40,027 bases of DNA from an uncultured Verrucomicrobiales bacterium (lineage in GTDB: Bacteria; Verrucomicrobiota; Verrucomicrobiia; Verrucomicrobiales; DEV007), in the NCBI GenBank assembly GCA_938082635.1, contig CALLLI010000032.1:1-40027 (forward strand), read 5' to 3'. This document shows positions 5,245 through 35,100 of the stretch, in pieces. Below the pieces are notes generated by a model. That model searched no databases, was not told the DNA's origin, and saw nothing but the letters and a program-made list of their open reading frames with translations. The stretch's first letter is position 1; each line of letters opens with the position of its first letter. Position numbers and translations under genes: made by a program.

Positions 5245-6162
5245 ATGACAGCACCGCTATCAGGCCTCATTGCCGCCGTTTTCACTCCGCTCAAGCCGAC
5301 CCGGGAGATTGATCTCGATCAGATCTCGAAGTTTACGGATTATTTGGCGAATAGCCCGGTAACCGGGATCTACATTCTAGGTGGAACGGGTGAAGGCGTC
5401 TCGTTCTCGAACGACGAGCGCCGTGTGGTGGCGGAAGCATTCCTCAAGGCTGCGGACGGCAGGCTCAAGACGATCATTCAGGTAGGGCATAACAGTTTGC
5501 CAGATGCGAAAAGCCTGGCAGAACACGCCGAGTCGTTGGGTGTCGATGCCATTTCTGCGACGCCACCGAGTTATTTCAAGCCTGGCGATGTGGAGATGCT
5601 CGTCAATTGTCTTGCAGAGATCACCGAGGGTGCTCCGAAGACACCCTTTTATTACTACCACGTCCCAGGAGTGAGCGGCGTCGATCTGAGCATGATCGAT
5701 TTCCTAGACGAGGCGCCGAAGCGGATCCCGACGCTTGCGGGCATCAAGTATTCCAAGGCGGATCTCGCGGAGTTCAAGAGCTGCCTGAGTTACGATAATG
5801 GCCGCTTCGATATCCCTTGGGGAACAGACGAGATGTTGTTAGGCGGTCTGGCAACAGGCGCGACGAGCGCAGTCGGTACGACCTATTGTTATGTAGCTCC
5901 GCTGTATCAAGCGATCATCGATGCGGTAAAGAAGGGTGATCTCGTGGAAGCACAGCGTTTGCAGGGACTGTCCGTAGAGATGATTCGCATCACGATGAAG
6001 CATGGCGGTAGGGGAGGGCTCAAAGCCTCGATGAAACTGGTGGGCGTCGATTGCGGCCCACAACGTTACCCCATTTGGGACATGTGTGAGGATGGTCTCA
6101 AAGCCATGCGAAAAGATTTCGAACGCGCCGGCATTCTATCGTATCTGAAACCGTTCGGCTAG
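5245..6162 (+). CDS. nanA: N-acetylneuraminate lyase
   Basis: A 305-residue cytoplasmic protein of the DHDPS/NAL aldolase superfamily, the usual family length. It has GGTGE at residues 46-50, a TPPSYFKP loop near 106-113, the catalytic tyrosine in YHVPGVSGV (Tyr138, equivalent to E. coli NanA Tyr137) and the Schiff-base lysine in GIKYSKADL (Lys168). The YYYHVPGVSGV and GIKYS signatures match N-acetylneuraminate lyases, including the eukaryote-like branch, better than dihydrodipicolinate synthases. Reaction: Neu5Ac to N-acetylmannosamine plus pyruvate. Two sialidase fusions and an N-acylglucosamine 2-epimerase downstream support the assignment. There is no signal peptide. The start ATG follows a 130-bp gap with no strong ribosome binding site. 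A different 2-keto-3-deoxy sugar acid aldolase remains a less likely alternative. Confidence 0.9.
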   Translation: MTAPLSGLIAAVFTPLKPTREIDLDQISKFTDYLANSPVTGIYILGGTGEGVSFSNDERRVVAEAFLKAADGRLKTIIQVGHNSLPDAKSLAEHAESLGVDAISATPPSYFKPGDVEMLVNCLAEITEGAPKTPFYYYHVPGVSGVDLSMIDFLDEAPKRIPTLAGIKYSKADLAEFKSCLSYDNGRFDIPWGTDEMLLGGLATGATSAVGTTYCYVAPLYQAIIDAVKKGDLVEAQRLQGLSVEMIRITMKHGGRGGLKASMKLVGVDCGPQRYPIWDMCEDGLKAMRKDFERAGILSYLKPFG

Positions 6163-6308: not shown

Positions 6309-9300
6309 ATGAACACCACGATCTCGAGTTTACTCGCCCTGCTAGGGGGCATAGCGACCGCTGCGGCCAAGCCGAATGTCCTGTTCATCGCCATTGATGA
6401 TCTGCGCCCTGAGTTAGGTTGCTACGGGCACAGCCACATCATCAGCCCGAACATTGATCGGTTGGCAAAGGAAGGCGTGCGGTTTGATCGCGCTTATTGC
6501 CAGCAGTCGGTTTGCAATCCTTCGCGGGCTAGCATCCTTACCGGGTTGCGCCCGGACGCCACACAGGTGCATAGCAACCACACACACTACCGTGACATCT
6601 ATCCCGACATCGTCACGCTGCCGCAGCATTTCAAGAATCATGGCTATCACACGCAGGCCTTTGGAAAGATCTATCATGGTGTGTTTCCTGAAGGTTCTAG
6701 CAAGACGGTAGCGGATACCTATGGGGACCCAGTTTCTTGGAGTGCCCCAGCGTATCGTCCAGGCCCCCGCTACTACTATACTGAGGATGGCATCGTTTCG
6801 GCAAAGAAAGCGTACCTTTCAATGTACCGGCCAGTCGATCCAGATCTCAATGATTGGACGAAGAAGCTGGTGTTTGGACCGATGACGGAAGCGCCCGATG
6901 TCCCTGACGAAACGCTCTACGATGGCTTGGTGGCGAAGCGTGCCACGGAGACCCTTCGCGATCTCGCTCAGAAGGATCGGCCGTTCTTTCTCGCCGTGGG
7001 CTTCATCAAGCCACACAGCCCTTTCATTGCGCCCAAGAAGTATTGGGATCTCTACGATCCTAACCAGATCGATCTCGCGACTCACCAATCCGCGCCTGAG
7101 GGCACACCAAAGATGGCTCTACATGGCTCTGTTGAGATTCGACGTTACACGGACCAGCCAAACAAGGGAGACATTCCTGAGGATAACCAGCGGCGAATGA
7201 AACACGGATACGCCGCTTGCATCAGTTATGTGGATGCACAGATCGGAAAGGTGCTGTCTGAATTGGATCAGTTAGGCCTGCGGGAGAACACGATTGTCGC
7301 CTTGTGGAGCGATCACGGCTATCATCTCGGTGAAATGGATCTCTGGGGAAAGACGACGAACTTCGAGTTGGACACCCGAGTGGCCATGATTGTGCGTGCC
7401 CCGGGCCGCAAGGGCAATGGACAGGCGACGAATGCTCTGGTCGAGCTGGTCGATCTTTACCCAACGCTCACGGATTTAGCGGAACTGCCAGTGCCTGAGC
7501 ATGGGCTTCAGGGAAAGAGCTTTGCGCCTATCTTGGATGAGCCAGAGCGTTCTTGGAAGTCAGCGGCGTTCTCGCAATTCACCCGTGGAGGGCATCGTGG
7601 TTACTCGCTCACGGACGGACGCTATCGATACACGGAGTGGATCAGTTTGAAGTCGGGCGACGTTTCCGATCGTGAATTCTACGATCATGAAGTTGATCCT
7701 GACGAAAGGCGCAATCTAGCCAACGCCACGGGCCAGCAAGTGAACGTTGCGAGGCTCAAAGCTTTGTTGGCTAAAGGCGAAGGCTGGCGACATGCTGAGC
7801 CGCATGAGCTTCAGTTAGGCGCGCCCTTTGGGAGTCACATGGTCTTGCAACGAGAGAAGCCGGTGCCGGTCTTTGGACAGGCGTACCCTGGTAAAACAGT
7901 CAAGGTGGCCTTCGGTGGGCAAGAGCAAACAACCCAAGCTGATTCGCTGGGAAGGTGGTCCATCAATCTCGATGCCATGCCTGCGAATACCTCGCCTCAA
8001 GAGATGGTGGTACGTTCCGGGAAGCAGGCGATCGCGCTCGAAGATGTGTTGGTGGGCGAGGTCTGGCTCTGCGCTGGCCAGTCAAACATGCACTGGAAGC
8101 TTGAGCAGTCCAAGGGGGCGAAACAGGCCATAGCCGCCTCTACCAATCCCAACATCCGCCTTCTCGATTTTACAGGCGCGCTCTACCCTAGCAAGAAACG
8201 CTATCCGCTAGGCATGCTGCGGAGCATTGGAGCCGACAACTACTACGCAACCGAAGGGTGGCAACGATGCTCGCCTCAGACAGCAGCGACGTTCTCGGCC
8301 GTTGCCTACTACTTTGGCGACAAGCTTCAATCCACTCTCGGCATCCCAGTTGGGCTCGTTCACAACGCTATTGGTGGCGTGCCCATGGAGTCCTACGTCC
8401 CTTCTGAGAACTCAAGCGGCTGGTTGGACGATCCTAACATGCCTGCCTGGTGCCGCGAGCGCGGTCGGGACAACTTGGCGGCTTGGTTAGATAAGCCTGC
8501 CGCTCCAGCTCCACATCATCCTTTCGAACCCGGATTTCTGTTTGAAGCCGGAATACGCCCATTGCTGCCCATGGCACTGCGAGGCTTTCTTTGGTATCAG
8601 GGGGAGTCCAATGCCACCGCTTCGGGAGCGGGCAGCCCCGCCATTGATCCTGCAACGAACAAGAAGAAGTTCATGTCCTTGATTCGCGAATGGCGCAAAG
8701 GCTGGAACGACCCGCAGCTTCCTTTTTACTTCGTGCAATTGCCAGGGCTCAACCGCGACTGGCCATTGTTTCGCGAGATGCAACTGGAGGTCTCGCAGGA
8801 AGTGCCACACACAGGCATGGCAGTGACGATTGATGTTGGTCACCCGACCAATGTCCATCCAGCGGATAAGCGCCCAGTTGGTGAACGTCTTGCCCAGCTG
8901 GCATTAGCAGCCGCTCGCAGCCCCATATTGAAGAATGTAGCATTCGAAGAATCCGCCGCGAGCATGCATTTGTCTGGCAGCCTAGCAACAAGCGATGGCG
9001 AACCTCTACGGGGATTTGTCATTGCTGGCGAGGATAAGCAGTTTCATCCGGCCAGCGCGACGCTGGAGAATAAGGTGATCCGTGTGACTTCGAACCACGT
9101 CTCGAGTCCGAAAGCGGTTCGTTATGGTTGGGCAAATAATCCTAATGTGAACCTCACTGGCAAAGATGGTTTTCCGGTGTCGCCGTTCAGGACCGATCGG
9201 TGGCTGGTTGCGATCACGACCCAAGAGGCTAGCCCCGATGCCAATGTTGCTTACGGGACCAGTTTCGAACAAGCGAAGCCGGAGCCGTTCACCAAGCTGA

Positions 9301-11165
9301 CGTTGGGCAAAGCGACGTGGGCTGCTGATGCCGGGCATGCGCAAGTAACCGCGCGTTACGCTCATCGTGGCAAACAGAGCCTTCACCTAAAGGGAGGCAA
9401 GGATCGCACTATCACTCTCGCGCTCGACCAGCCAACGGAAGCTGGCACGGTTCTAACGTTTCAAGCTGAGCGCTGGACAAGTCGCTCGCCCTACGCGTTC
9501 CGCATTGAGTCGCAGGATGGGAAAGAGATCTATCGTGGTGATAGTAAGATTCGAGTGGGACGACCATTTCTCTCCGTCGTTAGGGTTCCTCTACCAGCAG
9601 GTGCCACCCTTCTCCGTTTCATCGGCTCTGCGCCACCGAATGCAGGCACACTCATTGACGATGTGGCGATCAAGAAAGAGATGCCGATGCGAATTGATGG
9701 CGTCCGCGTTGCCCAGCAGGTGAATCCGGTATTGATTGGAAAAACGAACAACCCAGTAATCGCGGTGAATGTGAGAACGACTGGCAGTCTGGAGCCCAGG
9801 ACCGTTCGAAGTTTGACCGTTCGTATTCCCAATGTTGCGGGAATCGCTAGAGTTCGTATCTATCGTAAAGATAAACTCTTTGGCGAAGCGCTTGAGCCTA
9901 TGAATGAGCTCAAGTTCGAAGGGAAACAAGTCCTGTCCGACGGGCTCAATACCTTCCGTGTGTCCATGGAGCTGGAGCCCGCGGCACCGCTGGGTGGGCG
10001 CGTGGATGCGCAGTTCGTGAGCTTGGACATCGATGGCAAGACTCACAGCGTGGAAGAAGTATCTTTAAGGGGACCACAGCGCATTGGTGTGGCGGTGAGG
10101 ACAGCTGGGCAAGATGATTGCCACACCTATCGCATTCCCGGCTTAGCCACGACGAAGCAAGGCTCGTTGATCGCGGTGTATGACAATCGCTATCGCAGCA
10201 GCGGTGACTTGCCTGGTGATATCGATGTCGGCATGAGTCGCAGCACCGACGGAGGACAGACCTGGGAATCGATGAAGGTCATCATGGACATGGGGAACGA
10301 TCCTGACTGGCGTTACGATGGTATCGGCGATCCATCCATTCTGGTGGATCGTGTCACTGGGCGCGTCTGGGTCACGGCGACATGGAGCCACGGTGATCGC
10401 TCCTGGAACGGCTCTGGCCCTGGACTCGAACCGGAAGAAACAGGGCAGTTCATGTTAGTCTACAGTGATGACGATGGCGTGACCTGGTCAAATCCTCGCA
10501 ATATCACCAAGCAGATCAAGAAACCTGAATGGCGGTTTGTACTGCAAGGCCCTGGCAACGGCATTACCATGCGAGACGGCACCTTGGTCTTTCCCGCGCA
10601 GTATCGCGGCGTCAATGCCGAGCCTGTCAGTGGGAAACCATCCTCAACCCTCATCTACAGCAAAGATCGTGGGAAGACGTGGACTATCGGGACCGGTGTG
10701 AAGATAGACACCACGGAAGCGCAACTGGTTGAGCTTGGCGATGGCTCAATCATGATCAATTGTCGTGACAATCGAAACCGCGGCCTGCCAGATGGTCAGA
10801 ATGGTAGGACGGTGGCCATTACGAAGGATCTCGGCAAGACCTGGCAACTCCATCCCACCGACCGCAAGGCGCTGCCTGAACCCACTTGTATGGCCTCACT
10901 CATTCGCATCGAACACAAGAAATATGGGGCGTTGTTAGTCTTGTCCAATCCGGCGACTGGCAAAGGTCGCTTCAATATGACTCTCAAGGTGAGCAATGAC
11001 GAAGGCATGACCTGGCCGAAGAAATGGCACACGTTATACGATGCTCGTTCTTGCGCGGGTTATTCATGTCTTACCCAAGTGGATGACGATCATGTCGGCG
11101 TGCTCTATGAAGGTGTCAGAGAGCTGTATTTCATGAAATTCTCCATTGATGAGTTGATGCCATGA
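6309..11165 (+). CDS. Secreted sulfatase / sialate O-acetylesterase / sialidase triple fusion
   Basis: A single 1618-residue reading frame with a signal peptide (about 1-20, ending ATAAA). Module 1 (about 21-495) is an S1 sulfatase: PNVLFIAIDDL supplies metal-binding aspartates and Cys69 in CNPSR is the formylglycine site; HSPF and SDHGYHLGE resemble the iduronate-2-sulfatase-like subfamily. Module 2 (about 503-975) is a sialate O-acetylesterase-like SGNH protein: GSHMVLQREKPVPVFG, then GEVWLCAGQSNM carrying the nucleophilic Ser, and FLWYQGESNA. A beta domain (about 978-1125) and a sialidase-associated N-terminal domain (about 1127-1255) follow. Module 3 (about 1256-1618) is a GH33-like sialidase: YRIP near 1274, five Asp-box-like motifs (STDGGQTW, SDDDGVTW, SKDRGKTW, TKDLGKTW, SNDEGMTW), an acidic TEAQLVELGDG segment and a likely nucleophilic Tyr in GYSCL. 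Predicted role: outside the cytoplasm, removal of sulfate, O-acetyl and sialic acid from decorated glycans. The exact sulfate position is unknown. No internal stop or frameshift is seen. Confidence 0.92.
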   Translation: MNTTISSLLALLGGIATAAAKPNVLFIAIDDLRPELGCYGHSHIISPNIDRLAKEGVRFDRAYCQQSVCNPSRASILTGLRPDATQVHSNHTHYRDIYPDIVTLPQHFKNHGYHTQAFGKIYHGVFPEGSSKTVADTYGDPVSWSAPAYRPGPRYYYTEDGIVSAKKAYLSMYRPVDPDLNDWTKKLVFGPMTEAPDVPDETLYDGLVAKRATETLRDLAQKDRPFFLAVGFIKPHSPFIAPKKYWDLYDPNQIDLATHQSAPEGTPKMALHGSVEIRRYTDQPNKGDIPEDNQRRMKHGYAACISYVDAQIGKVLSELDQLGLRENTIVALWSDHGYHLGEMDLWGKTTNFELDTRVAMIVRAPGRKGNGQATNALVELVDLYPTLTDLAELPVPEHGLQGKSFAPILDEPERSWKSAAFSQFTRGGHRGYSLTDGRYRYTEWISLKSGDVSDREFYDHEVDPDERRNLANATGQQVNVARLKALLAKGEGWRHAEPHELQLGAPFGSHMVLQREKPVPVFGQAYPGKTVKVAFGGQEQTTQADSLGRWSINLDAMPANTSPQEMVVRSGKQAIALEDVLVGEVWLCAGQSNMHWKLEQSKGAKQAIAASTNPNIRLLDFTGALYPSKKRYPLGMLRSIGADNYYATEGWQRCSPQTAATFSAVAYYFGDKLQSTLGIPVGLVHNAIGGVPMESYVPSENSSGWLDDPNMPAWCRERGRDNLAAWLDKPAAPAPHHPFEPGFLFEAGIRPLLPMALRGFLWYQGESNATASGAGSPAIDPATNKKKFMSLIREWRKGWNDPQLPFYFVQLPGLNRDWPLFREMQLEVSQEVPHTGMAVTIDVGHPTNVHPADKRPVGERLAQLALAAARSPILKNVAFEESAASMHLSGSLATSDGEPLRGFVIAGEDKQFHPASATLENKVIRVTSNHVSSPKAVRYGWANNPNVNLTGKDGFPVSPFRTDRWLVAITTQEASPDANVAYGTSFEQAKPEPFTKLTLGKATWAADAGHAQVTARYAHRGKQSLHLKGGKDRTITLALDQPTEAGTVLTFQAERWTSRSPYAFRIESQDGKEIYRGDSKIRVGRPFLSVVRVPLPAGATLLRFIGSAPPNAGTLIDDVAIKKEMPMRIDGVRVAQQVNPVLIGKTNNPVIAVNVRTTGSLEPRTVRSLTVRIPNVAGIARVRIYRKDKLFGEALEPMNELKFEGKQVLSDGLNTFRVSMELEPAAPLGGRVDAQFVSLDIDGKTHSVEEVSLRGPQRIGVAVRTAGQDDCHTYRIPGLATTKQGSLIAVYDNRYRSSGDLPGDIDVGMSRSTDGGQTWESMKVIMDMGNDPDWRYDGIGDPSILVDRVTGRVWVTATWSHGDRSWNGSGPGLEPEETGQFMLVYSDDDGVTWSNPRNITKQIKKPEWRFVLQGPGNGITMRDGTLVFPAQYRGVNAEPVSGKPSSTLIYSKDRGKTWTIGTGVKIDTTEAQLVELGDGSIMINCRDNRNRGLPDGQNGRTVAITKDLGKTWQLHPTDRKALPEPTCMASLIRIEHKKYGALLVLSNPATGKGRFNMTLKVSNDEGMTWPKKWHTLYDARSCAGYSCLTQVDDDHVGVLYEGVRELYFMKFSIDELMP

Positions 11166-11194: not shown

Positions 11195-11959
11195 TTACTT
11201 GCCCAAATCAGGATTCTTCTCTTTGGCGGGTTCGCCCATGATAAAGATTCCTGCACCTAGCTGGTCGCGGGTATACTGTTTCACCTTCCCTTGCTTGATT
11301 AGACGTTGCAGTGTGGCATTCGGGCGGGCGTCCGCGTCGAACCGGCCGGCGCTTCCCTTAAGGTAAGGGAGCAGTTTCTTCACATCTTCAATCATAGGGA
11401 CAGGGCAACCGGTTGTGCAAGGTACTCGGCCGACCAGGCGCTTTGATCGCCTCTCGCGAAGCATCGGGCTTGCCTTGGGATTGTAGGAGTGGATCACGAC
11501 GCCGTTGGGAACTTGCCCGCGCAGTTCTGGATCTGGGAAACTGGGCGGGTAGAGGATCTCGGCATAGATCCCTGAGACACCCTTCTTCGTATCTCCCGTC
11601 TGGATTGAGGTGTCTCCGTTCTTCGCAATCCGAACGCCACCCATCGTGAAGAATCCGGTTGGGGTCTGCGCATCGCCGAAGCCCAGTCCATTCTTTCCCG
11701 TCCCGCAGCGGAGAGTGGTGACGATGTTTCCCTTGCGCCGCGCCAACACATGCATCCGCTGCGTCTTTGGATCGACCACGAAGACGTAGGCGGGATTGTA
11801 GGTGCGATGACCAGCCGTCTGCTGAGCCTGGATGCCCGCCTCGATTTGTTGCAACGTGTCGCTGCCGATCGTGGCCTGAGCGCGTTTCGAATAAGTGACT
11901 GCGGGCGCGTGGGTGACTCCAGCGAGCAGAACGGCGAGGAATAGAAGGCGGAGGTTCAT
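11195..11959 (-). CDS. L,D-transpeptidase (YkuD-like) cell-wall enzyme
   Basis: A 254-residue exported protein starting at the ATG complementary to 11957-11959; the longer frame to 12079 is unlikely because the signal peptide begins there (MNLRLLFLAVLLAGVTHAPA). The catalytic region contains DAQTPTGFFTMGG, a conserved VVIHSYNP histidine near residue 157 and a CTTGCPVP segment with the likely catalytic Cys near 185, close to the SxGCP motif of YkuD-type domains. Such enzymes form 3-3 peptidoglycan cross-links or attach proteins to the wall. It is convergent with the triple fusion (29 bp between stops) and divergent from the next sulfatase-sialidase gene, so it interrupts the sialic acid locus on the opposite strand. 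A functional link to sialic acid use is not apparent. Exact substrate is unknown. Confidence 0.8.
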   Translation of the reverse strand: MNLRLLFLAVLLAGVTHAPAVTYSKRAQATIGSDTLQQIEAGIQAQQTAGHRTYNPAYVFVVDPKTQRMHVLARRKGNIVTTLRCGTGKNGLGFGDAQTPTGFFTMGGVRIAKNGDTSIQTGDTKKGVSGIYAEILYPPSFPDPELRGQVPNGVVIHSYNPKASPMLRERRSKRLVGRVPCTTGCPVPMIEDVKKLLPYLKGSAGRFDADARPNATLQRLIKQGKVKQYTRDQLGAGIFIMGEPAKEKNPDLGK

Positions 11960-12060
11960 GGGAAGAGTAACAGACAGTAAACTAACACTTGAGGCACCTC
12001 GGCTCAAGTAGGGCTTGAGTGAAGCGCTTACTATCGTCAAACTAGAGGTGTCCTTTAAAT

Positions 12061-14646
12061 TTGGTTCCCTTGTTGTCATCGTCGCTCCTCAGATATGTGA
12101 AGACTCTTCGTAGTGGAGTCTTGGTTCTCGGTTTCTTATTTCCTCTCCTTCAAGCCTCCTTCGCCAAGCCGAACATCCTCCTCATTGTCTCGGAGGACAA
12201 CGGACCGGAACTCAGATGCTATGGCGATCCCTACGCGCAGACCCCGGTGCTGGATCAGTTGGCCAAAGACGGTGTGCGCTTTGAAAGGGCCTTCGTTCCC
12301 TATCCGGTGTGCAGCCCCTCACGAGGCTGTTTCCTCACAGGGCTCTACTCGCATCAGAATGGGCAGATCGGTTTGGCGACTCACAAGTTTGCCACGTATC
12401 CTAACGTCCCGAACGTCTTCACATTGCTTAAGGCCACAGGCTATCGCACCGGGCTCATCGGTAAACTCCATGTCAATCCGGAGAAGGCTTTCCCCGTAGA
12501 CTATCGAGCCATCAAGGGGGCTAATTTCGGTGAGCGAAACATGAAGAACTACGCGGACGCAGCGAACAGTTTCTTCAGTGAAGAGTCCGCCGAACCTTTC
12601 TTCCTTTCGATCAATTATCCCGATGCGCATTTCCCGCTGCATCGGCAGCAGTTCGGCCTGCCAGAAACACCAATTGATGGCGATGATGTGAAGCCGTTGC
12701 CTTGGGTAGGCGCGGATTCACCAAGACTGCGTGACTTCACTGCCAATTACTACAATTGCATGCGCCGATTGGATGATGGCGTAGGCATGTTGTTAGAATG
12801 TTTGCGAAAGTCAGGCAAGTCGGACAACACGCTCGTCATCTACATTGGCGATCACGGTGCGCAGTTCTCTCGCGGCAAATGTTCCGTTTACGAATCCGGA
12901 TTGCGCATCCCATTCATCGTGAGATGGCCTCGTGAAGCTAAGGGGGGCCAAGTCCGGCGGGAACTGGTTTCCGCCTTGGATATTCTTCCTACCATTCTTG
13001 AGGCATCTGATATTGAGTTGTCTGGTCAGCTGTCAGGCCGCGCACTTCAACCGCTCCTCTCTGGAGAAACCGTGCCTTGGCGAAAGTACGTTTTCGGGTT
13101 CACCACCGGAGCGGCTCCAGCGATCTTTCATCTCGCACACTCCGTTAGAGATGAACGCTACAAGCTGATCTCAAATCCGCTGGCTTCAGAAGGTGCTCCG
13201 AATCTTTATGCCAAGGCCTATCTGGAGCAATACAACACGCACTTCGCTGCAGGCACTTTGCCTGAAGAGATCGAAGTCGCTCCCGAGCATGTGCAAACCG
13301 CCTACAACACCTTCCTGCATCCACCTCGCTACGAACTCTATGACCTGGAGAATGATCCTAACGAATTTCACAACCTGGTAGAGAACTCGGATTACGTGGA
13401 AACAAAGGAGAGACTGATTCGGACGCTGACGGACTGGCAATTCGAAACTCGTGATCCGCTCAGTGACCCGGAGCGGTTACAGGCCTTTGCTAGCTTTCAA
13501 AAGGAGATGAGCGACCTCTCCTATCGCAAAGACAACGTCTTCCGCTGGCCCTATCTGGATCAGTTCCGAACGTGGCGTAGTAAGCATGAGGGCAAGGTTG
13601 TTTACAGCTTTGATCAAGCATCGAACACGGGCTATCGAATCCCCTCAGTCATTCGAACGAAGAATGGCCGTTTGTTAGCCTTTTGTGAACGTCGTGAAGG
13701 CCTTCATGATCATGCCAAGAACGACATTGTCCTTCGGTCTTCTGATGATGAGGGCATGACCTGGAACAATCTCCAAGTGCTCGAGGATGAAGGCGATGAC
13801 TCATTGAACGACCCACGTGCTGTGGCCCTCGATGACGGTCGTATTCTGCTTCACTACAAACGCTATCCTCGAGGCTATCATGCTAGGAAGTCCGCGCATA
13901 CGGAGATGGCGGATGCTGGTTACGAAGGGCCGCGAACTTGTCGCAGCTACCAAATAGAATCCACCGACGAAGGTCGCACCTGGACCACACCTCACGAAAT
14001 CACGCGTCAGATCCGGCGTCCGGAAATGATGGCCTGCGGAAGCTCGGGCATTGGCATCCAATTACAGAGCGGTAAGCACAAAGGGCGGATCGTGTTTCCG
14101 CTCTATCAAACGCTTCCTTTGGGCAATGATCAACGTGCGTGGAAGACTTGTGCGGTCTACAGTGACGATGGCGGGAAGACTTGGCAACGCGGGGAGAACA
14201 TCGATGAAGGTGGCACGTCAGGCGTGAGCAATGAAGCGCAGTTGGTGGAATTGTCAGATGGGTTTATCATGATCAGCGCACGCAATCAGGGAGAGCAGCG
14301 TCGGAAACTTGCCGTGAGTCGTGATGGAGGGGCTCATTTCGAACCCTACCGTGTGGCTGACGAACTAACAACACCCGCATGCATGGCCAGTGTCCTGCGT
14401 TATGAATCCGACCTGCTTCTCCACACTATTCCTCACAGCACAAAGCGAGCCGACGGACGTCTCTTCTCAAGTTCAGACGATGGCAAGACTTGGCAAGATA
14501 TCCTAACAATTGAGCCTGGTGAGTTCGCCTATAGTTGCCTCGTCAACTTGGACCACGGTGATGTCGGCTGCCTTTACGAAACTCGCAGGGACGGCCGTTT
14601 TGAGATTCACTTCAAACGGATTTCCAAACATCTGATCACACCCTAA
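12061..14646 (+). CDS. Secreted sulfatase-sialidase fusion
   Basis: An 861-residue fusion. TTG 12061 has an AGAGGTG box at 12044-12050 at suitable spacing; GTG 12097 would give a shorter, equally good signal peptide (MKTLRSGVLVLGFLFPLLQASFA). Residues about 36-490 are an S1 sulfatase: PNILLIVSEDNGPEL, Cys84 in CSPSRG as formylglycine site, GKLHVNP and GDHGAQF; this resembles the heparan N-sulfatase-like subfamily, unlike the sulfatase of the upstream fusion. Residues about 515-861 are a GH33-like sialidase: TGYRIPSV, Asp boxes (SSDDEGMTW, STDEGRTW, SDDGGKTW, SRDGGAHF, SSDDGKTW), the acidic segment SNEAQLVELSDG and a likely Tyr nucleophile in FAYSCLV. There is no esterase module. It is the first gene of a tight plus-strand run with the YdcF-like and epimerase genes. 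Predicted to act outside the cytoplasm on sulfated sialoglycans. Confidence 0.9.
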   Translation: MVPLLSSSLLRYVKTLRSGVLVLGFLFPLLQASFAKPNILLIVSEDNGPELRCYGDPYAQTPVLDQLAKDGVRFERAFVPYPVCSPSRGCFLTGLYSHQNGQIGLATHKFATYPNVPNVFTLLKATGYRTGLIGKLHVNPEKAFPVDYRAIKGANFGERNMKNYADAANSFFSEESAEPFFLSINYPDAHFPLHRQQFGLPETPIDGDDVKPLPWVGADSPRLRDFTANYYNCMRRLDDGVGMLLECLRKSGKSDNTLVIYIGDHGAQFSRGKCSVYESGLRIPFIVRWPREAKGGQVRRELVSALDILPTILEASDIELSGQLSGRALQPLLSGETVPWRKYVFGFTTGAAPAIFHLAHSVRDERYKLISNPLASEGAPNLYAKAYLEQYNTHFAAGTLPEEIEVAPEHVQTAYNTFLHPPRYELYDLENDPNEFHNLVENSDYVETKERLIRTLTDWQFETRDPLSDPERLQAFASFQKEMSDLSYRKDNVFRWPYLDQFRTWRSKHEGKVVYSFDQASNTGYRIPSVIRTKNGRLLAFCERREGLHDHAKNDIVLRSSDDEGMTWNNLQVLEDEGDDSLNDPRAVALDDGRILLHYKRYPRGYHARKSAHTEMADAGYEGPRTCRSYQIESTDEGRTWTTPHEITRQIRRPEMMACGSSGIGIQLQSGKHKGRIVFPLYQTLPLGNDQRAWKTCAVYSDDGGKTWQRGENIDEGGTSGVSNEAQLVELSDGFIMISARNQGEQRRKLAVSRDGGAHFEPYRVADELTTPACMASVLRYESDLLLHTIPHSTKRADGRLFSSSDDGKTWQDILTIEPGEFAYSCLVNLDHGDVGCLYETRRDGRFEIHFKRISKHLITP

Positions 14647-14659
14647 CTTGGCGACATTC

Positions 14660-15304
14660 ATGACGGCGAAAGAAGCGATCCGCCTGGTGTGGGACTACCA
14701 TCATCTAAACCATGTCTTGGCTCCTGCCGATGCCATTTGGGTGCTGTGTAGTCATGATCTGCGCGTGGCGGATCGTGCGGTGGAGCTTTGGAAGGAGGGG
14801 CTGGCGCCTTTCGTGATCATGTCTGGGGGCTTCGGCAATTTCACGGAAGGTGTCTTCGAGAAGCCCGAAGCCGAGCTCTTTGCTGAACGCGCAATTCAAC
14901 TCGGGTTGCCGGTTTCCAAAGTCCTGGTAGAGGCTCGATCGACCAACTGCGGAGAGAACGTTGCCTTCACTCGGGCCTTGCTGGAAGAGAAGCAGATCGC
15001 GTTGTCAGAAGTCATCGCTGTGCAGAAGCCCTACATGGAGCGCCGCACCTTTGCGACGATTCGTAAGCAGTGGCCTGCACTCGAAGTCCAAGTGTCATCG
15101 CCACAGATGAGCTTTGACGACTACACTACCGGATCTATCACTCCTGACATGGTCGTCCATATCATGGTAGGCGACTTGCAGCGAATCATTGAGTATCCCA
15201 AGCAAGGGTTCATGATTGAGCAGGAGCTTTTGCCGGAAGTCGAAGAGGCCCTTCAAGTCCTCATTGAGGCAGGTTATACTAAGCATTTGTTAGCCCCACT
15301 GTAG
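14660..15304 (+). CDS. YdcF/ElyC-like DUF218 protein
   Basis: A 214-residue protein; the ATG at 14660 is chosen over an in-frame TTG at 14648. It matches the DUF218 (YdcF/SanA/ElyC) superfamily: an N-terminal strand ADAIWVLCSHD (about 23-33), the glycine turn FVIMSGGFG (about 51-59), EARSTNCGEN (91-100), where the family conserves S/T-x-x-N/E, and VQKPYMERRT (121-130). No signal peptide or membrane span is seen, so it is probably cytoplasmic like E. coli YdcF. Biochemical function in this family is poorly defined; some members bind S-adenosylmethionine and ElyC affects envelope polysaccharide precursors. It sits 13 bp after the sulfatase-sialidase fusion and 12 bp before the epimerase, so it is almost certainly cotranscribed with sialic acid genes. 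A role in amino-sugar handling is inference. Confidence 0.75.
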   Translation: MTAKEAIRLVWDYHHLNHVLAPADAIWVLCSHDLRVADRAVELWKEGLAPFVIMSGGFGNFTEGVFEKPEAELFAERAIQLGLPVSKVLVEARSTNCGENVAFTRALLEEKQIALSEVIAVQKPYMERRTFATIRKQWPALEVQVSSPQMSFDDYTTGSITPDMVVHIMVGDLQRIIEYPKQGFMIEQELLPEVEEALQVLIEAGYTKHLLAPL

Positions 15305-16579: not shown

Positions 16580-18259
16580 ATGAAGCGCCAAGTGTCATTC
16601 CTCGCAGTGCCAGGAGTAGTGGCTTTGTTAATGTTATGCCCTGCCGTCGGAGAGGGGCTCTTTATTCAGGAAGTGACCTTTCTAACGCCTCCTTACCTGC
16701 AGAACTTGAGAACGGATGGCATCGTGATTATGACCGAGACGGATGAGAATGTTCCCCTTGAGGTGGTCTACGGCACGTCTGAGGCGTTTGGCTCAAAAGC
16801 GACGATGGAGCGGGTGGCCAGTGGTGGGGGAACGTGGTTTCATCGGGTTCCGCTGTCGGGACTGGAACCCGAGACGGAGTATCACTATGCTGTTCAATGT
16901 CAGGGTGGGGATCCTTTAACGGGTCACGCGCATTTCCATACGGCGCCTGACAGAGAGGTCGATTTCAAGTTCTCCGCCTGGAGTGATAGCCAAGGGCACA
17001 ACCACGGTGCTTGGGCCGCAGACCCACTCGAACCGACCATTAGCATGATGAAGCATATGGTGCAGTCAGGCGTTGCCTTTGGTTTGACCGCGGGGGATTT
17101 GGCAGAAGATGGTGGTAGCTACTCGGACACGCGCGACTACTACCTCAAGCGTGTCGCGACCCATCTTGGAACGTCGGTGCCTTGGTTCGCAGCGTGGGGG
17201 AATCATGATACGAGCAGTCCTACTGCGCCGCTTCGTTTGGCCTCTGATATGCCGAGTCGTTACCGTGAAGGGTTCTCGCCAGGCCATGGCTCATTCAGTT
17301 TTGTCTACGCCAACTGCTTCTTTGTGTGTCTCGATGAGTTTTACAAACGAGAGATCACGAATGGTTGGCTCGAAGAGCAATTAGCATCGCCCGAATCGCG
17401 ACAGGCGCGCTTTCGATTTCTGGGTGTCCATGTGCCGCCTTATTGTGAGAGATGGATCGATGGCGACCAAGCATTGCGCGACAATTTAGTGCCGTTGCTA
17501 GAGAGGTATGATGTCGCCATTTGCTTCAGTGGGCACACCCATGAGTACGAGCGAGGTGAATTGAACCATGTTCACTATGTGGTCACTGGGGGAGGGAGCT
17601 GGCTAGACCACCCTGAGGTGGTGGTCCGGGATTGGGAGCACATGTTCGTTGGCGGCGCGCATGATGTGGATGGCATGTGGGCGAGGCAGAGCCGCCGTGG
17701 CGTTCTTGGCGCGCCCGAGCCGATTGTGGGTGGCCTGTTCAATGAGTATGCCCTGGTAAGCATCCGAGACGACTATCTTCGGCTAGAGACCCAGGGCTTT
17801 AATGCGGACGGGTCTGAGATCGGCGTGCTCGACTCGTTTGAGATAGGCAATGATCCTGGACCTGATAGCGATCAAGATGGTATGCGCGACCCATGGGAAT
17901 TAGCTAATGGGCTCGATCCCAATGACCCCACAGGGGTGAACGGGCCGGACGGGGATCTCGATGGCGATGGGCAGACGAATTTCGTGGAGTGGATGGCTGG
18001 AACGGTTGCCAATGATCGACATTCCCGATTTGAACTGCTTACAGCAAGGTTGGATGACGAAGCCCTTCACATTGCGTGGCCGAGTGCTCCCGGGAGACGT
18101 TACCGGATTCACACGTCAGAGGATTTGAAAACGTGGATGACTTACATTGGCGTATTTGGTCGGCCTGTCGAGATCAAGGCGTCGGATGGAGAACTTACCA
18201 CCTTTAAGCTGCGCGGGGCCCGGGTTAAAGTTCGGTATGTGAAAGTGTCAGCTGAATGA
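16580..18259 (+). CDS. Secreted purple-acid-phosphatase-like metallophosphoesterase
   Basis: A 559-residue protein with a signal peptide (about 1-25). An FN3-like domain (about 36-120) typical of purple acid phosphatases precedes a calcineurin-like phosphoesterase domain (about 128-350). Metal-ligand motifs visible are AWSDSQG, GDLAEDGG, GNHD (Asn208-Asp210) and GHTHEYER (His319 and His321). After the catalytic domain comes a calcium-binding, thrombospondin-type-3-like stretch (PDSDQDGMRDPWE, GDLDGDGQTN, about 428-470), then a C-terminal beta module (about 485-559) opening YRIHTSEDLKTW and ending YVKVSAE. It probably hydrolyses phosphomonoesters or diesters outside the cytoplasm; substrate unknown. 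It starts 69 bp after the epimerase and may share its transcript. Its stop lies one base from the convergent DUF1080 gene's stop. Confidence 0.82.
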   Translation: MKRQVSFLAVPGVVALLMLCPAVGEGLFIQEVTFLTPPYLQNLRTDGIVIMTETDENVPLEVVYGTSEAFGSKATMERVASGGGTWFHRVPLSGLEPETEYHYAVQCQGGDPLTGHAHFHTAPDREVDFKFSAWSDSQGHNHGAWAADPLEPTISMMKHMVQSGVAFGLTAGDLAEDGGSYSDTRDYYLKRVATHLGTSVPWFAAWGNHDTSSPTAPLRLASDMPSRYREGFSPGHGSFSFVYANCFFVCLDEFYKREITNGWLEEQLASPESRQARFRFLGVHVPPYCERWIDGDQALRDNLVPLLERYDVAICFSGHTHEYERGELNHVHYVVTGGGSWLDHPEVVVRDWEHMFVGGAHDVDGMWARQSRRGVLGAPEPIVGGLFNEYALVSIRDDYLRLETQGFNADGSEIGVLDSFEIGNDPGPDSDQDGMRDPWELANGLDPNDPTGVNGPDGDLDGDGQTNFVEWMAGTVANDRHSRFELLTARLDDEALHIAWPSAPGRRYRIHTSEDLKTWMTYIGVFGRPVEIKASDGELTTFKLRGARVKVRYVKVSAE

Positions 18260-20584: not shown

Positions 20585-23500
20585 ATGAAACTATCAAAAC
20601 CCTGCGGGAGTTTACTCTCTCGTGTCTTGTTGGCGTGCACACTATTCAGTGCACCGTTTGCGTTGGCCGAGCTTCCAGACCAGGATCCGTCCGCTGAGGG
20701 GCCGTGGTCTGATGTCGAGTGGACGACCCTTACGGTCCCCTTGGTCCCCGATGGCTCTGTCACTGTGGACGGAACCGTGAGCCAAGAAGAGTATGGAAAT
20801 TTCCCTGGCCAATTTGTCAATCCAGGGGAGAACGCGTGGAACCTTCCTGCCCCCGGTGGCCTGTGGGATAATGAGGAAGATACCAGTTTCACGTTCTGGT
20901 TAGCGCACGACACGGACTACTTCTATGTGGGCATCGATGTTAACGATGACGTCGTCAATCAGGACAATATCGATGCTTTGTGGAAGGACGACTCTGTCGA
21001 GATCATCGTCGATGCCTTGAATGATCGCTACGACCTCAATACGGACCAGGGCGTGAATGATGCGCTTGGTGGTCACAATTATGTCAGTTACAATGGGTTC
21101 TTTTCCGATTGGGACCATGATACAGACATGAAGAAAGCCGATGGGCTGCGTTGGTCGAATGAGGTCGATTGGACCTTTAGCGAAGATGGGGGAGTCTATG
21201 CTGTGGGCAGTGAGGTCGACGGTGGTTGGCACCTGGATGTTCGTTTTGCTAAGGTACTCTTCGAAGACGCTGAAGTAGGTAACAAGTTAGAGGATGGCTA
21301 TGTTATGGGCTTCAACATCGGCATGGATGATGACGATAAGACTGGGCCGGAAACGGGCGACTTGGAACTCCAATACTGGTGGGCCAATCGTGCACGTTTG
21401 ATCGGTTGGAACGCTGAAGCAGCAGAGGATTACACGGCAGAACAAATTGCCAATGGTGACCATGAGAAGGATTTTGAAACGGGGCTTGATGCTGGAAGTC
21501 GATTGACTCGCGGTTCTACGGGTGAGATCATCTTTGCATCGGACAACCCATTCGAGTTGACGCCGGGCCCTAACATCACGGTCAGTTCAAAAAAGCGGCT
21601 TGGTCAGTTGGATTCAGCCAATCCCACCTATGCCGACGTCGTGACGGTGAGAAACACCGGGACGGAGAATGATCTAACCATTTCTGACGTGAACGTCGTG
21701 GGCACCGACATGGCACTGTTCACGGTCGATGAATTTCCTATGACGCTCGCGCCGCTGACGTCTGGCGATATCAAGTTCACCTTCAGTCCAGAAGGTCGTA
21801 CGGGTAACTTTGCCGCGACTTTCGAGATCGTGAGTGATGATGTGGATGCTGATGATCAGACGAGATTGGTCGAAGTCACGGCCAGTGTGGTCAATTTGAG
21901 TGGTCCCAAGGCTCATTATGCCTTGGATGACGCGGCCGATGCTGCGGAAATGATCGATATCACAGGATTCGGAAACGGCGGCACCTATGTCGGCAGCCCC
22001 ACCCTTGGTGTCGATGCGCTTGCGAGCGGAACCGCCATGGAAGTGAACGGGAGCAACTACGGCCAAGCAGATGGATCGGCACTGGGCACTCCTGACGGCT
22101 TTACGATTTCTACTTGGGTCAACGCGTCTACAAACACGGGGTCGCAGACCATCGTAGGCAAAGGCGATAACGGCAACCCTACCTTTGCGCTCTTGCTCAC
22201 AGCAGATGCGCTGGAATGGTTCGTCGAAGACGCCGCGAAGTTCGCGACACCCGCAGGTGCCGTGATCGCCGGCCAGGCGCACTTTGTCACCGTCACATGG
22301 ACGGCTGACAAAGCCACCATCTATGTGGACGGTGTGGAAGCGGCGAGTCAGGATGGACCGGACGCGCTTGATTTATCGAACGCGAATCCGATCTACATTG
22401 GTTCGTTTGCCGGAGTCCTCTCCTTCAGCGGTGTCATTGATGACGTGCAGATCTACGATCGTGTGTTGTCTGGCGAAGAGATTGAGTTCCTCATGGCGAG
22501 TCCCGGTGAGGTTATTGGAGGTACGGCTCCGCCAGTCGATCCTGTCAATGCGATGATCACTTGGCAGGCACCGAACGCCGACACTACTACATCGGACATC
22601 ATTGGTGGATCTGCCATTACGTTTGCTCCGTTCGCCTATGATGGTGGAAATGCGGAAGGGACTTTCTTCACCGGTGATGGTGGAACTTCAGGAGACGAGG
22701 ATCTTGATGCTGTTTACAACAGTCACGGCTGGAATGGCGACGGAGCGTCAATCGTTCTCGATGGGCTGACCGCTGGCCAAGCTTACCAGGTGCAATTGTT
22801 AGGTGCCGGAGATACTCGTGGCTGCTGCGCGACGCGGAATCAGGCGGCTTCAGATGGGCAGGGGAATGTGAGTGCGGACTTCCTTCGCGGGAATAGCTCT
22901 GTCATTGGCACGTTCACCGCAGCGAGTGCAAGTCAGGAGATCATGATCATCGCGGGCACAGACAACGGCGTTGATCCTGGTCTCAGTGGTTTCATTCTAA
23001 CAGATGCTAATGGTGGTTTCATCTCAGCCTCAAATGTCGGGCGGACCGAAGGGGACGCGATTGCGGTAACGGTGCCTTCAGGGGGTGACGCGCCGCTCGA
23101 TCTCCTTGTATTGGGAGCGGATGATACGGGGGAGGCGGGGGCCGATGCCAATGTGCTCGCTTACCTTGGTGAGACGTTTGGTGCAGAGAATATACGCTAT
23201 CTAAACTCCGGGGCCACGGATGGCACGGAGACGGCTGATGTGATTATCTTCTCGTCGACGTTTGGTTCGGGGTCTGTGCGTGGGAAATTCCACAACGCTG
23301 CAGTACCCATCGTGAACTGGGAAGAAGCGGTCATGGATGCCAGTGCCGATGGAGAATTCGGGCAAAGCGTCGCGTTGATGACGAAGTCGAGCGACACGGT
23401 TCAGATGGCATTATCCAATCATCCCATCGCGGGCGACTTCGCTGGCACAACGATCGACTTCTTCACGGGAGCCGGCGCGGAAACGTTGGGATCCTCAGAG

Positions 23501-24667
23501 CTTTCGGCTGGAACAGAAGCGGTTGGAACAGCTGCCGATGGCAGCATTGTGGATCTTGCCATGCTCTTCGCCACAGAGGCTGGTGCGGCTGTGGCTGAGG
23601 GCGCAGGAGTGACGGACAACGTGGCGCCTGCGCGACGTGTGGCTTTCCCAATAACTGACTCGTCGTTCAATGAGCTTACGGATGCAGGCAAGCAGTTGTT
23701 TGCGAACTCCATCCGTTGGGCGGCTGGTGTTGGCGGTGATCCCTCGCCAAACCTGGTTGGCCATTGGACCTTTGATGAGGGAGCAGGAACGGTCGCGGGT
23801 GATGGAAGTGGCTCCGGCCATGACGCTGAATTTCGCAATGGCGAACCGATGTGGGTGGCGGGTAAGAGCGGTGGTGCCTTGGCATTCGATGGGGATGACG
23901 ACTTGACTGTTGCTGGCTGGAAGGGCATCGGCGGAGCAGCGCCTCGCGCCATTTCCTATTGGCTCAAGACGGATTGGGACGTCAGCGCTGTGGGCGGAAA
24001 TGTTGCCTGGGGCTCAAGTGAAACTGGGCTTAAGTGGCATTTCCGACTGAATGAGAACGCTGGGAATGGACCTGTTGGTGCCATTCGCACCGAGATTCAA
24101 GGGAGCTTCCACATCGGAACTCAGGTCGTGAATGACGACGCGTGGCACCATGTGGTGTCGATCTTCCCTGAGGGGGGCCAGTTCATGCAAGACTTGGTTC
24201 ACTATGTGGACGGCGAGCTGCAAGAGGTTGGCGGGACTGGCTCAGACACGGTTGAGGTAAACACCGCTGGTGAAGCGGAAAGCGGCACCGATGTGACGTT
24301 CGGATCGCGACTTCAAGGGGCCAATGATCAATACTACATTGGTGCGATGGATGACATTTCCATCTGGAGCCGGGGACTTGCGGCCGAGGAAGTGCAAGCG
24401 CTCTTCCAGGGAGCGACTCCTATCAATGTTGCTGCTGGTAATCTTGACGTTGGATCGAGTGAGGGATTGCCTCCTCTCACCAGTGTCAACCGCACTGCTA
24501 GTGGTGTCTCGATCAGCGTGCCTGATGGTCAAGCGTATGACATTCAGTATTCCACGGACCTGATCAAGTGGGAAACTGTCGCCCTAGGAGCGAGTGGTTC
24601 CTACGAAGACACAGACGCGACGCGCACAGGTGGTGCGTCAGGCTACTATCGTGGCGTGAAGCCCTAG
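20585..24667 (+). CDS. Large multidomain secreted carbohydrate-binding-like protein
   Basis: A 1360-residue protein with a signal peptide (about 1-28, ending PFALA). Order seen: a CBM9-like domain (about 55-322, with VTVDGTVSQEEY, DDSVEIIVDA), a beta domain of the choice-of-anchor D / ASH type (about 325-435, TVRNTGTENDL), a LamG-type lectin fold (about 440-635, FTISTWVNA, DDVQIYDRVLSGEEI), a glycine-rich stretch (about 650-815), an alpha/beta region resembling a ThuA/glutamine-amidotransferase-like fold (about 833-1030, LDLLVLGADD, ADVIIFSS), a second LamG domain (about 1052-1275) and a C-terminal module (about 1307-1360) opening YDIQYSTDLIKWETV and ending GYYRGVKP. No glycosidase or peptidase active site is recognised. 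Likely a cell-surface or released glycan-binding protein. A strong terminator follows at 24699-24728. Confidence 0.82.
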   Translation: MKLSKPCGSLLSRVLLACTLFSAPFALAELPDQDPSAEGPWSDVEWTTLTVPLVPDGSVTVDGTVSQEEYGNFPGQFVNPGENAWNLPAPGGLWDNEEDTSFTFWLAHDTDYFYVGIDVNDDVVNQDNIDALWKDDSVEIIVDALNDRYDLNTDQGVNDALGGHNYVSYNGFFSDWDHDTDMKKADGLRWSNEVDWTFSEDGGVYAVGSEVDGGWHLDVRFAKVLFEDAEVGNKLEDGYVMGFNIGMDDDDKTGPETGDLELQYWWANRARLIGWNAEAAEDYTAEQIANGDHEKDFETGLDAGSRLTRGSTGEIIFASDNPFELTPGPNITVSSKKRLGQLDSANPTYADVVTVRNTGTENDLTISDVNVVGTDMALFTVDEFPMTLAPLTSGDIKFTFSPEGRTGNFAATFEIVSDDVDADDQTRLVEVTASVVNLSGPKAHYALDDAADAAEMIDITGFGNGGTYVGSPTLGVDALASGTAMEVNGSNYGQADGSALGTPDGFTISTWVNASTNTGSQTIVGKGDNGNPTFALLLTADALEWFVEDAAKFATPAGAVIAGQAHFVTVTWTADKATIYVDGVEAASQDGPDALDLSNANPIYIGSFAGVLSFSGVIDDVQIYDRVLSGEEIEFLMASPGEVIGGTAPPVDPVNAMITWQAPNADTTTSDIIGGSAITFAPFAYDGGNAEGTFFTGDGGTSGDEDLDAVYNSHGWNGDGASIVLDGLTAGQAYQVQLLGAGDTRGCCATRNQAASDGQGNVSADFLRGNSSVIGTFTAASASQEIMIIAGTDNGVDPGLSGFILTDANGGFISASNVGRTEGDAIAVTVPSGGDAPLDLLVLGADDTGEAGADANVLAYLGETFGAENIRYLNSGATDGTETADVIIFSSTFGSGSVRGKFHNAAVPIVNWEEAVMDASADGEFGQSVALMTKSSDTVQMALSNHPIAGDFAGTTIDFFTGAGAETLGSSELSAGTEAVGTAADGSIVDLAMLFATEAGAAVAEGAGVTDNVAPARRVAFPITDSSFNELTDAGKQLFANSIRWAAGVGGDPSPNLVGHWTFDEGAGTVAGDGSGSGHDAEFRNGEPMWVAGKSGGALAFDGDDDLTVAGWKGIGGAAPRAISYWLKTDWDVSAVGGNVAWGSSETGLKWHFRLNENAGNGPVGAIRTEIQGSFHIGTQVVNDDAWHHVVSIFPEGGQFMQDLVHYVDGELQEVGGTGSDTVEVNTAGEAESGTDVTFGSRLQGANDQYYIGAMDDISIWSRGLAAEEVQALFQGATPINVAAGNLDVGSSEGLPPLTSVNRTASGVSISVPDGQAYDIQYSTDLIKWETVALGASGSYEDTDATRTGGASGYYRGVKP

Positions 24668-24698
24668 TCCTGGCTGGGATTCAGTAGTACCATTCATG

Positions 24699-24728
24699 AA
24701 GGGCGAAGCTGGCGACGGCTTCGCCCTT
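24699..24728 (+). terminator. Intrinsic terminator after the 1360-residue protein gene
   Basis: AAGGGCGAAGC and GCTTCGCCCTT form a perfect 11-bp stem around an 8-base loop, 31 bp after the stop codon, followed by a short T-rich run (TCTTGTGTG). It separates this transcript from the CotH gene that starts at 24848. Confidence 0.75.
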
Positions 24729-24821
24729 TCTTGTGTGATGGGGGCTCCGGTCGGTTCGTGAAAGATATCGGTGACGGGTCCGTAACAAGGAGGTTGTTCT
24801 AGACCTCATTTTGGCTTATCT

Positions 24822-24827
24822 TATAAT
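24822..24827 (+). promoter_or_regulatory. Candidate -10 box of the giant CotH/lamin-tail gene
   Basis: A perfect TATAAT lies 20 bp upstream of the ATG at 24848 in a clearly A/T-rich stretch. No well-spaced -35 consensus is obvious; TTGTTC at 24794 would pair better with TATCTT at 24817. If used, the leader would be only about 14 bases. Confidence 0.4.
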
Positions 24828-24847
24828 TTCCATATATATTTGTTATT

Positions 24848-27568: not shown

Positions 27569-27571
27569 GGG

Positions 27572-33747: not shown

Positions 33748-35067
33748 CTAACCACGACCGATACAGAAGAGCTTCTCATTGGTTCGGATGAAGAGATTCT
33801 GTTGGGCAATGGCAACGGTTGAGCGGGTGAATTGAGCGCGTTCGGCACTCATAGGCGTCTTGTGGAGGAGTTCGAAGGTGTCAGACGCCTTGACCACATA
33901 GGCATTACCGCCATGATCCATGAGATAGATCTTGCCGTCTGCACCTGTGGGAGAGGCTTCAAACTTGGTCCGCCCCAGGCGTTCTTTCCAAACGACCTCG
34001 CCGGATGAGGGCTTAAGACAGGATAATTCGGAGCGATTGCCATCGAGGACGTAGAAACGGCCCCCATAGTAGAGTGGCGTAGGCACGTCTGCAGTTACGC
34101 CTTTTTCCTCTTTCATCCAAGCAATGGCATTCTCGTCTAACATCCCTTTGCCGCCTAACTTCACCGCATAGATCGGCTCGTTCTTTGGTGCGCATGCTAG
34201 AGCTATGCCTTCGGCAACGCAGGGGGAAGCAACCAATCGCCAGTGACCGATTTTCTTCGGATTCCAAGTGCCCCAGCGCCAAAGCTCTTTGCCTTCGGCA
34301 TCAATGTCATGACCAGAAATACAATCGCCGCCGGAGACGATGAGTTGAGTCTTCCCATCCTGACTGAAAATCATGGGTGTGGTGAAGGCTTCACGAGATT
34401 CGGCCACAGCTTCTGATGGGCGAAGATGTTTCCAGATTTCTTTGCCGGTGGAGGCATCCAGCGCGAGGAGGTAACTCTCATTCTTCTTGTCCTTGAAGCC
34501 GTTGTCGCCCACGGCTTCGTCGCGTTGTAAGACTTGAAGGTAGATGCGGCCATCGTAGAGGACCGGGCTGCTAGAGAAGGTCCAGAGGAAGGCGAAGGTG
34601 CCGTAGTCTTTCTGGATGTTCCGTTTCCAGAGTTCCTTACCGTCCATGTCAAACGCTAACAGATCACCGGTACCGTAGAAGATGATCACGCGCTCGCCAT
34701 CGGTCGCTGGCGAAGGCGCGGCGTAGTTGCTCCGATTGTCTTGCTCGATGGGGGACTTCAGTGAGTGTTTCCAGAGTTCCTTGCCGGTTTTGCGATTAAT
34801 GCAGAAGGCCTCTAGCGCTTTCGCTCCAGGATTGGTGGAGGTGGTAAAGACACGGTCGCCCCAGATGGCAGGCGTGGATGAGCCAGTGCCAGGCATGTCC
34901 ACACTCCACTTCACATTCTCTGTCTTGGAGAAGGTGCTTGGGAGCTTTGCCTCGCGAGAGGCGCCATTAAATTGCGGGCCGCGAAATTGTGGCCAATTCT
35001 CTGCGGCTACGAGTGCGGATGACGTGAGGATCGCTAGGCATGAAGCCAGGATGAGGGGGCGTTTCAT
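33748..35067 (-). CDS. Exported PQQ-like beta-propeller protein
   Basis: A 439-residue protein with a signal peptide (about 1-22, ALVAA). The mature N-terminus NWPQFRGP is a hallmark of PQQ-binding-like propeller proteins in Planctomycetota and Verrucomicrobiota. Repeated blade motifs of the TGKELWKH type occur several times (NRKTGKELWKHSL, DMDGKELWKRN, DASTGKEIWKHL, DAEGKELWRWG, SSGEVVWKERL), consistent with a six- to eight-bladed BamB-like propeller. No dehydrogenase active site is evident, so a scaffold or binding role is more likely than quinoprotein catalysis. It begins 33 bp after the stop of the upstream sulfatase gene on the same strand, pointing to one transcript. Substrate or partner unknown. 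Confidence 0.85.
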   Translation of the reverse strand: MKRPLILASCLAILTSSALVAAENWPQFRGPQFNGASREAKLPSTFSKTENVKWSVDMPGTGSSTPAIWGDRVFTTSTNPGAKALEAFCINRKTGKELWKHSLKSPIEQDNRSNYAAPSPATDGERVIIFYGTGDLLAFDMDGKELWKRNIQKDYGTFAFLWTFSSSPVLYDGRIYLQVLQRDEAVGDNGFKDKKNESYLLALDASTGKEIWKHLRPSEAVAESREAFTTPMIFSQDGKTQLIVSGGDCISGHDIDAEGKELWRWGTWNPKKIGHWRLVASPCVAEGIALACAPKNEPIYAVKLGGKGMLDENAIAWMKEEKGVTADVPTPLYYGGRFYVLDGNRSELSCLKPSSGEVVWKERLGRTKFEASPTGADGKIYLMDHGGNAYVVKASDTFELLHKTPMSAERAQFTRSTVAIAQQNLFIRTNEKLFCIGRG

Positions 35068-35100
35068 GCCCTCAGTCTAGGAATGGTCCCCTCGGCCTGT

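Follow-up and report, generated by a model that had tools for sequence, protein, structure and literature searches.

Within the stretch of DNA analysed here (the window, 40,027 nucleotides from an uncultured Verrucomicrobiales bacterium), two forward-strand genes each encode a protein in which a sulfatase is joined to a sialidase. This raises the question of whether the two proteins go back to a single fusion or were put together separately, and of what substrate a sulfatase and a sialidase in one chain might act on. The genes and motifs concerned are as follows.

5245..6162, forward strand: gene of the DHDPS family; its best NCBIfam match is N-acetylneuraminate lyase (NanA-like), below the equivalog cut-off
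6309..11165, forward strand: TRI, the upstream triple fusion (1618 aa), with an S1_7/IDS-like sulfatase, a SASA esterase (GQSNM), a BNR_assoc_N domain and a GH33 sialidase (BNR_2/3) of Bacteroidetes/Akkermansiaceae type
11195..12079, reverse strand: YkuD (L,D-transpeptidase) gene that separates the two fusions; divergent from SulSia and conserved in the related locus L031
12061..14646, forward strand: SulSia (861 aa, TTG start), with a signal-peptide-like N-terminus, an S1_8-like sulfatase, a short linker and a GH33-type sialidase
12310..12327, forward strand: CSPSRG formylglycine motif (C84, R88), residues 84-89 of SulSia
13636..14532, forward strand: sialidase catalytic residues R526, D550, E725, R741, R796 and Y824 of SulSia, from the alignment to NanI
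14648..15304, forward strand: DUF218 gene, between SulSia and the epimerase gene; the same neighbour is present in L031
15317..16510, forward strand: gene of the N-acylglucosamine 2-epimerase (AGE) family; its best NCBIfam match is N-acyl-D-glucosamine 2-epimerase, below the equivalog cut-off

The original prediction described SulSia as a single 861-residue protein combining an S1 sulfatase (CSPSRG) with a GH33-like sialidase and lacking an esterase, and domain searches bear this out. The frame at 12061-14646 is free of internal stops in translation; Pfam places Sulfatase at residues 37-317 (2.5e-47), together with SGSH_C, and BNR_2 at residues 537-836 (2e-30), together with BNR_3 (combined about 528-836), and no SASA or other esterase domain was found in the Pfam search of the 861 residues. 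The sulfatase thus spans approximately residues 35-510 and the sialidase approximately residues 520-861. The N-terminus appears to be a Sec-type signal. The exact start codon is uncertain, because the first 19 bp of the frame, from the TTG at 12061, also belong to the divergent YkuD gene; the orthologue in L031 has a possible ATG start about 16 codons ahead of the mature sulfatase.

Both halves retain the residues expected of active enzymes. The sulfatase half has the PF00884 core and a formylglycine motif of the form C/S-x-P-S/x-R, and alignment to SGSH and S1_8A shows that the S1 active-site residues E45, D46, R88, K135, H137, H190, D264, H265 and K273 are kept, which comprises the sulfate-binding and metal-binding set (D/E-D, K, H, H, D-N/H, K/R). 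Relative to the usual S1 set the first Asp is replaced by Glu and the Asn by His, as is also the case in S1_8A. Genes of the FGE family, which are needed for sulfatase maturation, were found in the genome of the window. In the C-terminal half, the Arg triad, the Asp acid/base and the Glu and Tyr nucleophile pair of GH33 are all present, and these six catalytic residues are shared with the sialidases of Clostridium perfringens (NanI) and Micromonospora viridifaciens, as the Asp-boxes may be. Unlike those enzymes, the sialidase half of SulSia has no lectin or CBM40 domain, and is accompanied by a sulfatase instead. Four Asp-box-like motifs were identified in the sequence, at residues 561, 634, 701 and 804; the propeller is modelled with low confidence. 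The AlphaFold model of SulSia is confident for the sulfatase part and poor for the sialidase half, and the relative geometry of the domains is not readable from it.

The sulfatases of the two fusions differ in type. The nearest solved relatives of the N-terminal half of SulSia by sequence are SGSH and S1_8A/S1_8B (PDB), and a Foldseek search with the AlphaFold model returned SGSH first, followed by S1_8A/B/C. SGSH is placed in S1_8 by SulfAtlas (PMC5066984); our provisional S1_8 label for SulSia comes from these best sequence and fold matches. Human SGSH and the Pseudoalteromonas S1_8A/B/C enzymes share with SulSia the formylglycine motif and most active-site residues, and the E-D and D-H pairs are as in S1_8A, but identity is only about 24-30%, and SulSia is fused to a sialidase and lies in a sialic-acid locus. 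For the sulfatase of TRI, on the other hand, the matches are iduronate-2-sulfatase and 6hhm, an S1_7 ulvan sulfatase. These matches support the assignment of the two sulfatases to different subfamilies, S1_8/SGSH-like and S1_7/IDS-like respectively, as had been anticipated from their motifs.

It had been suggested that the two sialidase modules might group together; instead, a tree built from 74 modules places them in separate clades, both with strong support. The SulSia sialidase belongs to a clade of mostly free-standing sialidases (B type, support 100/99), and that of TRI to another (T type, support 100/97) with Akkermansiaceae sialidases carrying BNR_assoc_N. Identity between the two modules is only about 34%, and a topology that unites them is rejected by the AU test (p 8.9e-43). 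It could be argued that a single sulfatase-sialidase ancestor was duplicated and that one copy then lost its esterase, given that the two proteins share a genomic neighbourhood and the same order of end domains. However, the trees and the AU test exclude this course of events for the sialidases, the sulfatases are S1_8-like and S1_7-like, and each module has unfused relatives that are closer. Sister positions of both module pairs, the mark of a duplicate of the upstream fusion, were not found, and we regard common descent of the two fusions as hardly credible. Taken together, the different subfamilies and the rejection of a single sialidase clade uphold the predicted independent origin and support the view that SulSia and TRI arose by separate fusions of neighbouring genes, with no duplication.

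A scan of 84,980 species genomes yielded the complete SulSia fusion once more, in the Verrucomicrobiaceae MAG HS5BWF_bin.44 (L031, on the same contig as G001), which belongs to the genus of the window. The two proteins are 80% identical over residues 33-860, and the window and L031 have in common the gene order triple fusion, YkuD, SulSia, DUF218, epimerase, phosphoesterase and DUF1080. SulSia is absent from two other genomes of the genus. As L031 is an independent MAG holding the same fusion, an assembly chimera can be ruled out. Between the two sequences, dN/dS (NG86) is 0.09 in the sulfatase and 0.06 in the sialidase, with 0.18 in the linker; both halves are therefore under purifying selection.

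Sulfatases and sialidases have also been brought together in other relatives, and within the window's family the S1_8 clade of SulSia occurs in several further forms. One genome (G439, L159) encodes a 1187-aa S1_8-BNR_assoc_N-sialidase protein whose T-type sialidase is nested in the tree among the triple-fusion orthologues, and whose sulfatase lies in an S1_8 subclade other than that of SulSia (AU p 9.3e-67 against grouping). In three others (G418, G412 and G419; L160-162), S1_8 and S1_7 modules form a double sulfatase; a sialidase comes next, and NanA-like and SASA genes are close by. A common group for this S1_8 module and that of SulSia was likewise rejected (AU p 2.7e-6). Given these different forms and the rejected groupings, S1_8 fusions arose at least three times. 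The same partners occur as separate genes: a free S1_8 sulfatase lies beside a TRI orthologue in G012 (L172), G440 (L177) and a planctomycete (L032); G247 and G334 (L132, L133) have an S1_8, an S1_7 and a sialidase gene in a row, each unfused; and in G434 (L188) a free S1_8 sulfatase abuts a T-type sialidase gene, an arrangement expected of the precursor of the G439 fusion. The joining is best explained by the collapse of neighbouring co-directional genes. The earlier proposal that repeated joining reflects selection is strengthened by these further independent fusions and separate-gene pairs, and it is plausible that coupling serves to handle two sulfate positions or two linkages.

Several S1_8 sulfatases of these relatives stand beside double sialidases of about 740-760 aa with two tandem propellers (L159:6591-8807, L177:10820-13102, L170:3245-5470 and L172:10462-12678); both propellers score strongly in G439 (L159) and G440 (L177), and the first scores weakly in L170 and L172 (G443, G012). 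Among the Akkermansiaceae, proteins of 1747-1936 aa (L128:13059-18866, L135:2001-7241) carry a T-like sialidase and, after it, a segment similar to the metallophosphoesterase protein at 16580-18259 of the window. Two B-type sialidases (L139:8354-11122, L129:111-2213) are preceded by 350-570 aa that match no Pfam family.

The association of S1_8 sulfatases with sialidases was seen in part of the family. In the window's family, 36 S1_8-clade loci were found via the sulfatase. A sialidase lies within about 10 kb in 11 of them, which fall without exception in three subclades. No sialidase was seen near the remaining 25, a count that includes two loci (G455, G450) viewed with flanks of 1.5 kb only and several cut by contig ends. 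On this basis, S1_8 sulfatases are not specific to sialic acid as a family, though particular lineages are tied to it. With 103 matches to sulfatases, besides 13 to BNR_2, in the genome of the window, the adjacency of sulfatases and sialidases has some background rate. Of its other sialidases, two adjoin sulfatases (L178, L179) and two do not (L180, L181). Three multi-domain sulfatases examined in this genome (1626, 1006 and 1000 aa) contain no further sialidase fusion, and have ankyrin, PhoD or a second sulfatase instead. The largest, G000:C452 (L182:3366-8243), is a 1626-aa frame with beta-propeller, cytochrome peroxidase-like and ankyrin segments and a sulfatase, and the 1006-aa protein (L185:3435-6452) is a fusion of a sulfatase and a PhoD phosphatase.

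We consider it probable (about 0.72) that SulSia belongs to a verrucomicrobial locus for sialic-acid catabolism and acts outside the cell or in the periplasm as a bifunctional enzyme on sulfated sialoglycans, and that it is a fusion separate from TRI. This explanation draws on the domains, the intact catalytic residues, conservation, purifying selection, the separate origins, the recurrent association and the sialic-acid gene context; from these we infer secretion, the two activities, one substrate for both domains and the uptake step. A formylglycine-dependent exo-sulfatase of S1_8 type and a GH33 exo-sialidase would work in one chain on the same sulfated sialoglycan, and would take off a terminus-blocking sulfate and sialic acid together. 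The freed sialic acid would be taken up by the cell (the scan of window genes showed no transporter), the NanA-like lyase would split it into N-acetylmannosamine and pyruvate, and the AGE enzyme would epimerise the N-acetylmannosamine. TRI, with its S1_7-type sulfatase, O-acetylesterase and second type of sialidase, may serve differently decorated sialic acids. AGE and NanA genes also adjoin other B-clade sialidases (L136 and L137; only AGE was noted at L138).

Which sulfate SulSia would remove is a separate matter, as the substrate and the order of action are not readable from sequence. On the one hand, the sulfate may be carried by a sugar that adjoins or underlies the sialic acid (such as Gal, GalNAc or Fuc in a sialoglycan from animals or algae), so that the sialidase uncovers it for the exo-sulfatase, or the two domains attend to different branches of one glycan. 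The characterised S1_8 enzymes are exo-acting, have blind pockets and cleave the 2-O- or N-sulfate of terminal Gal, Xyl or GlcN (PMC12549532); such exo-action at position 2 favours a neighbouring sugar, and nothing in sialic acid corresponds directly to this 2-O/N-sulfate position, which counts against our explanation. The occurrence of S1_7 and S1_8 genes together in the absence of a sialidase (L041, L042) is as expected of a wider sulfated glycan, and sulfatase-glycosidase fusions usually serve one polysaccharide (PMC6388578). However, the window shows neither a fused nor an adjacent glycosidase for the underlying sugars, and we give this possibility slightly less than an even chance. On the other hand, the sulfatase half may be a sialate O-sulfatase (acting for example on 8-O-sulfo-Neu5Ac/Gc) that unblocks the substrate of the attached sialidase, as the SASA esterase of TRI would for O-acetyl groups. 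A sulfate on the sialic acid itself is favoured by the direct weld to sialidases, made with two sialidase types in separate events, and by the unblocking esterase that TRI contains. Sulfated sialic acids are found across the vertebrates as well as in sea urchins (PMC9304399), 8-O-sulfated ones being found in sea urchin gametes (PMC9630641) and in vertebrates (PMC9304399), and according to a 2023 review no microbial sulfatase active on them had been reported (PMC10017367), leaving an activity to which no microbial enzyme is assigned. The preference of characterised S1_8 enzymes for position 2 of hexoses or pentoses, and the many S1_8-clade homologues far from any sialidase, weigh against a sialate O-sulfatase, which we propose tentatively. 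We are more doubtful still of the broader proposition that bacteria have a sialate O-sulfatase in this S1_8-like half and that the recurring fusions constitute a class of enzymes which remove sulfate (and acetate) from sialic acid before cutting it, thereby opening sialidase-resistant sulfated sialic acids to Verrucomicrobiota and Planctomycetota.

GH33-like folds also cleave other 2-keto-3-deoxy sugars, and the BNR domain could accordingly be a GH33 relative for another ulosonic acid (Kdn, a Kdo-like sugar or a plant or algal sugar). The complete NanI-type catalytic set of SulSia, the AGE epimerase and NanA-like lyase genes adjoining in the window and in relatives, and the SASA esterase of TRI all speak for sialic acid, and make another ulosonic acid quite improbable.

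Fusions of comparable design are known. Those of S1 sulfatases with glycosidases have been described in PVC and other marine bacteria (S1_7-GH10, S1_7-GH32 and S1_15-GH29; PMC6388578), and in these, as in the GH78-sulfatase 6hr5, the two enzymes share one chain as in SulSia; however, none of those reported in PMC6388578 includes a sialidase, whereas the joining of sulfatase and sialidase seen here recurs in several separate forms within one family. Esterase-sialidase fusions are also known (PMC10017367). In SiaBb1 of Bifidobacterium bifidum (PMC10017367) an unblocking enzyme is likewise fused to a sialidase, but it removes O-acetyl groups, not sulfate, and comes from another phylum; TRI corresponds to that plan with a sulfatase added. 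Our literature searches, which covered few subscription papers, found neither a sulfatase-sialidase fusion nor a sialate sulfatase. The recurrent welding of the two activities in sialic-acid loci provides a short list of candidates for a sulfatase of sulfated sialic acid, and can be viewed as a natural experiment on when enzymes that share a degradation step merge into a single protein. Enzymes of the SulSia type may make sulfated sialic-acid sugars available as food.

Two other parts of the window deserve mention. The sialic-acid locus is adjoined by a run of very large proteins with CotH, Lamin-tail, LamG and InlB-repeat domains (20585-32278), and further downstream, on the reverse strand (33748-36465), a PQQ beta-propeller gene adjoins another, free-standing sulfatase.
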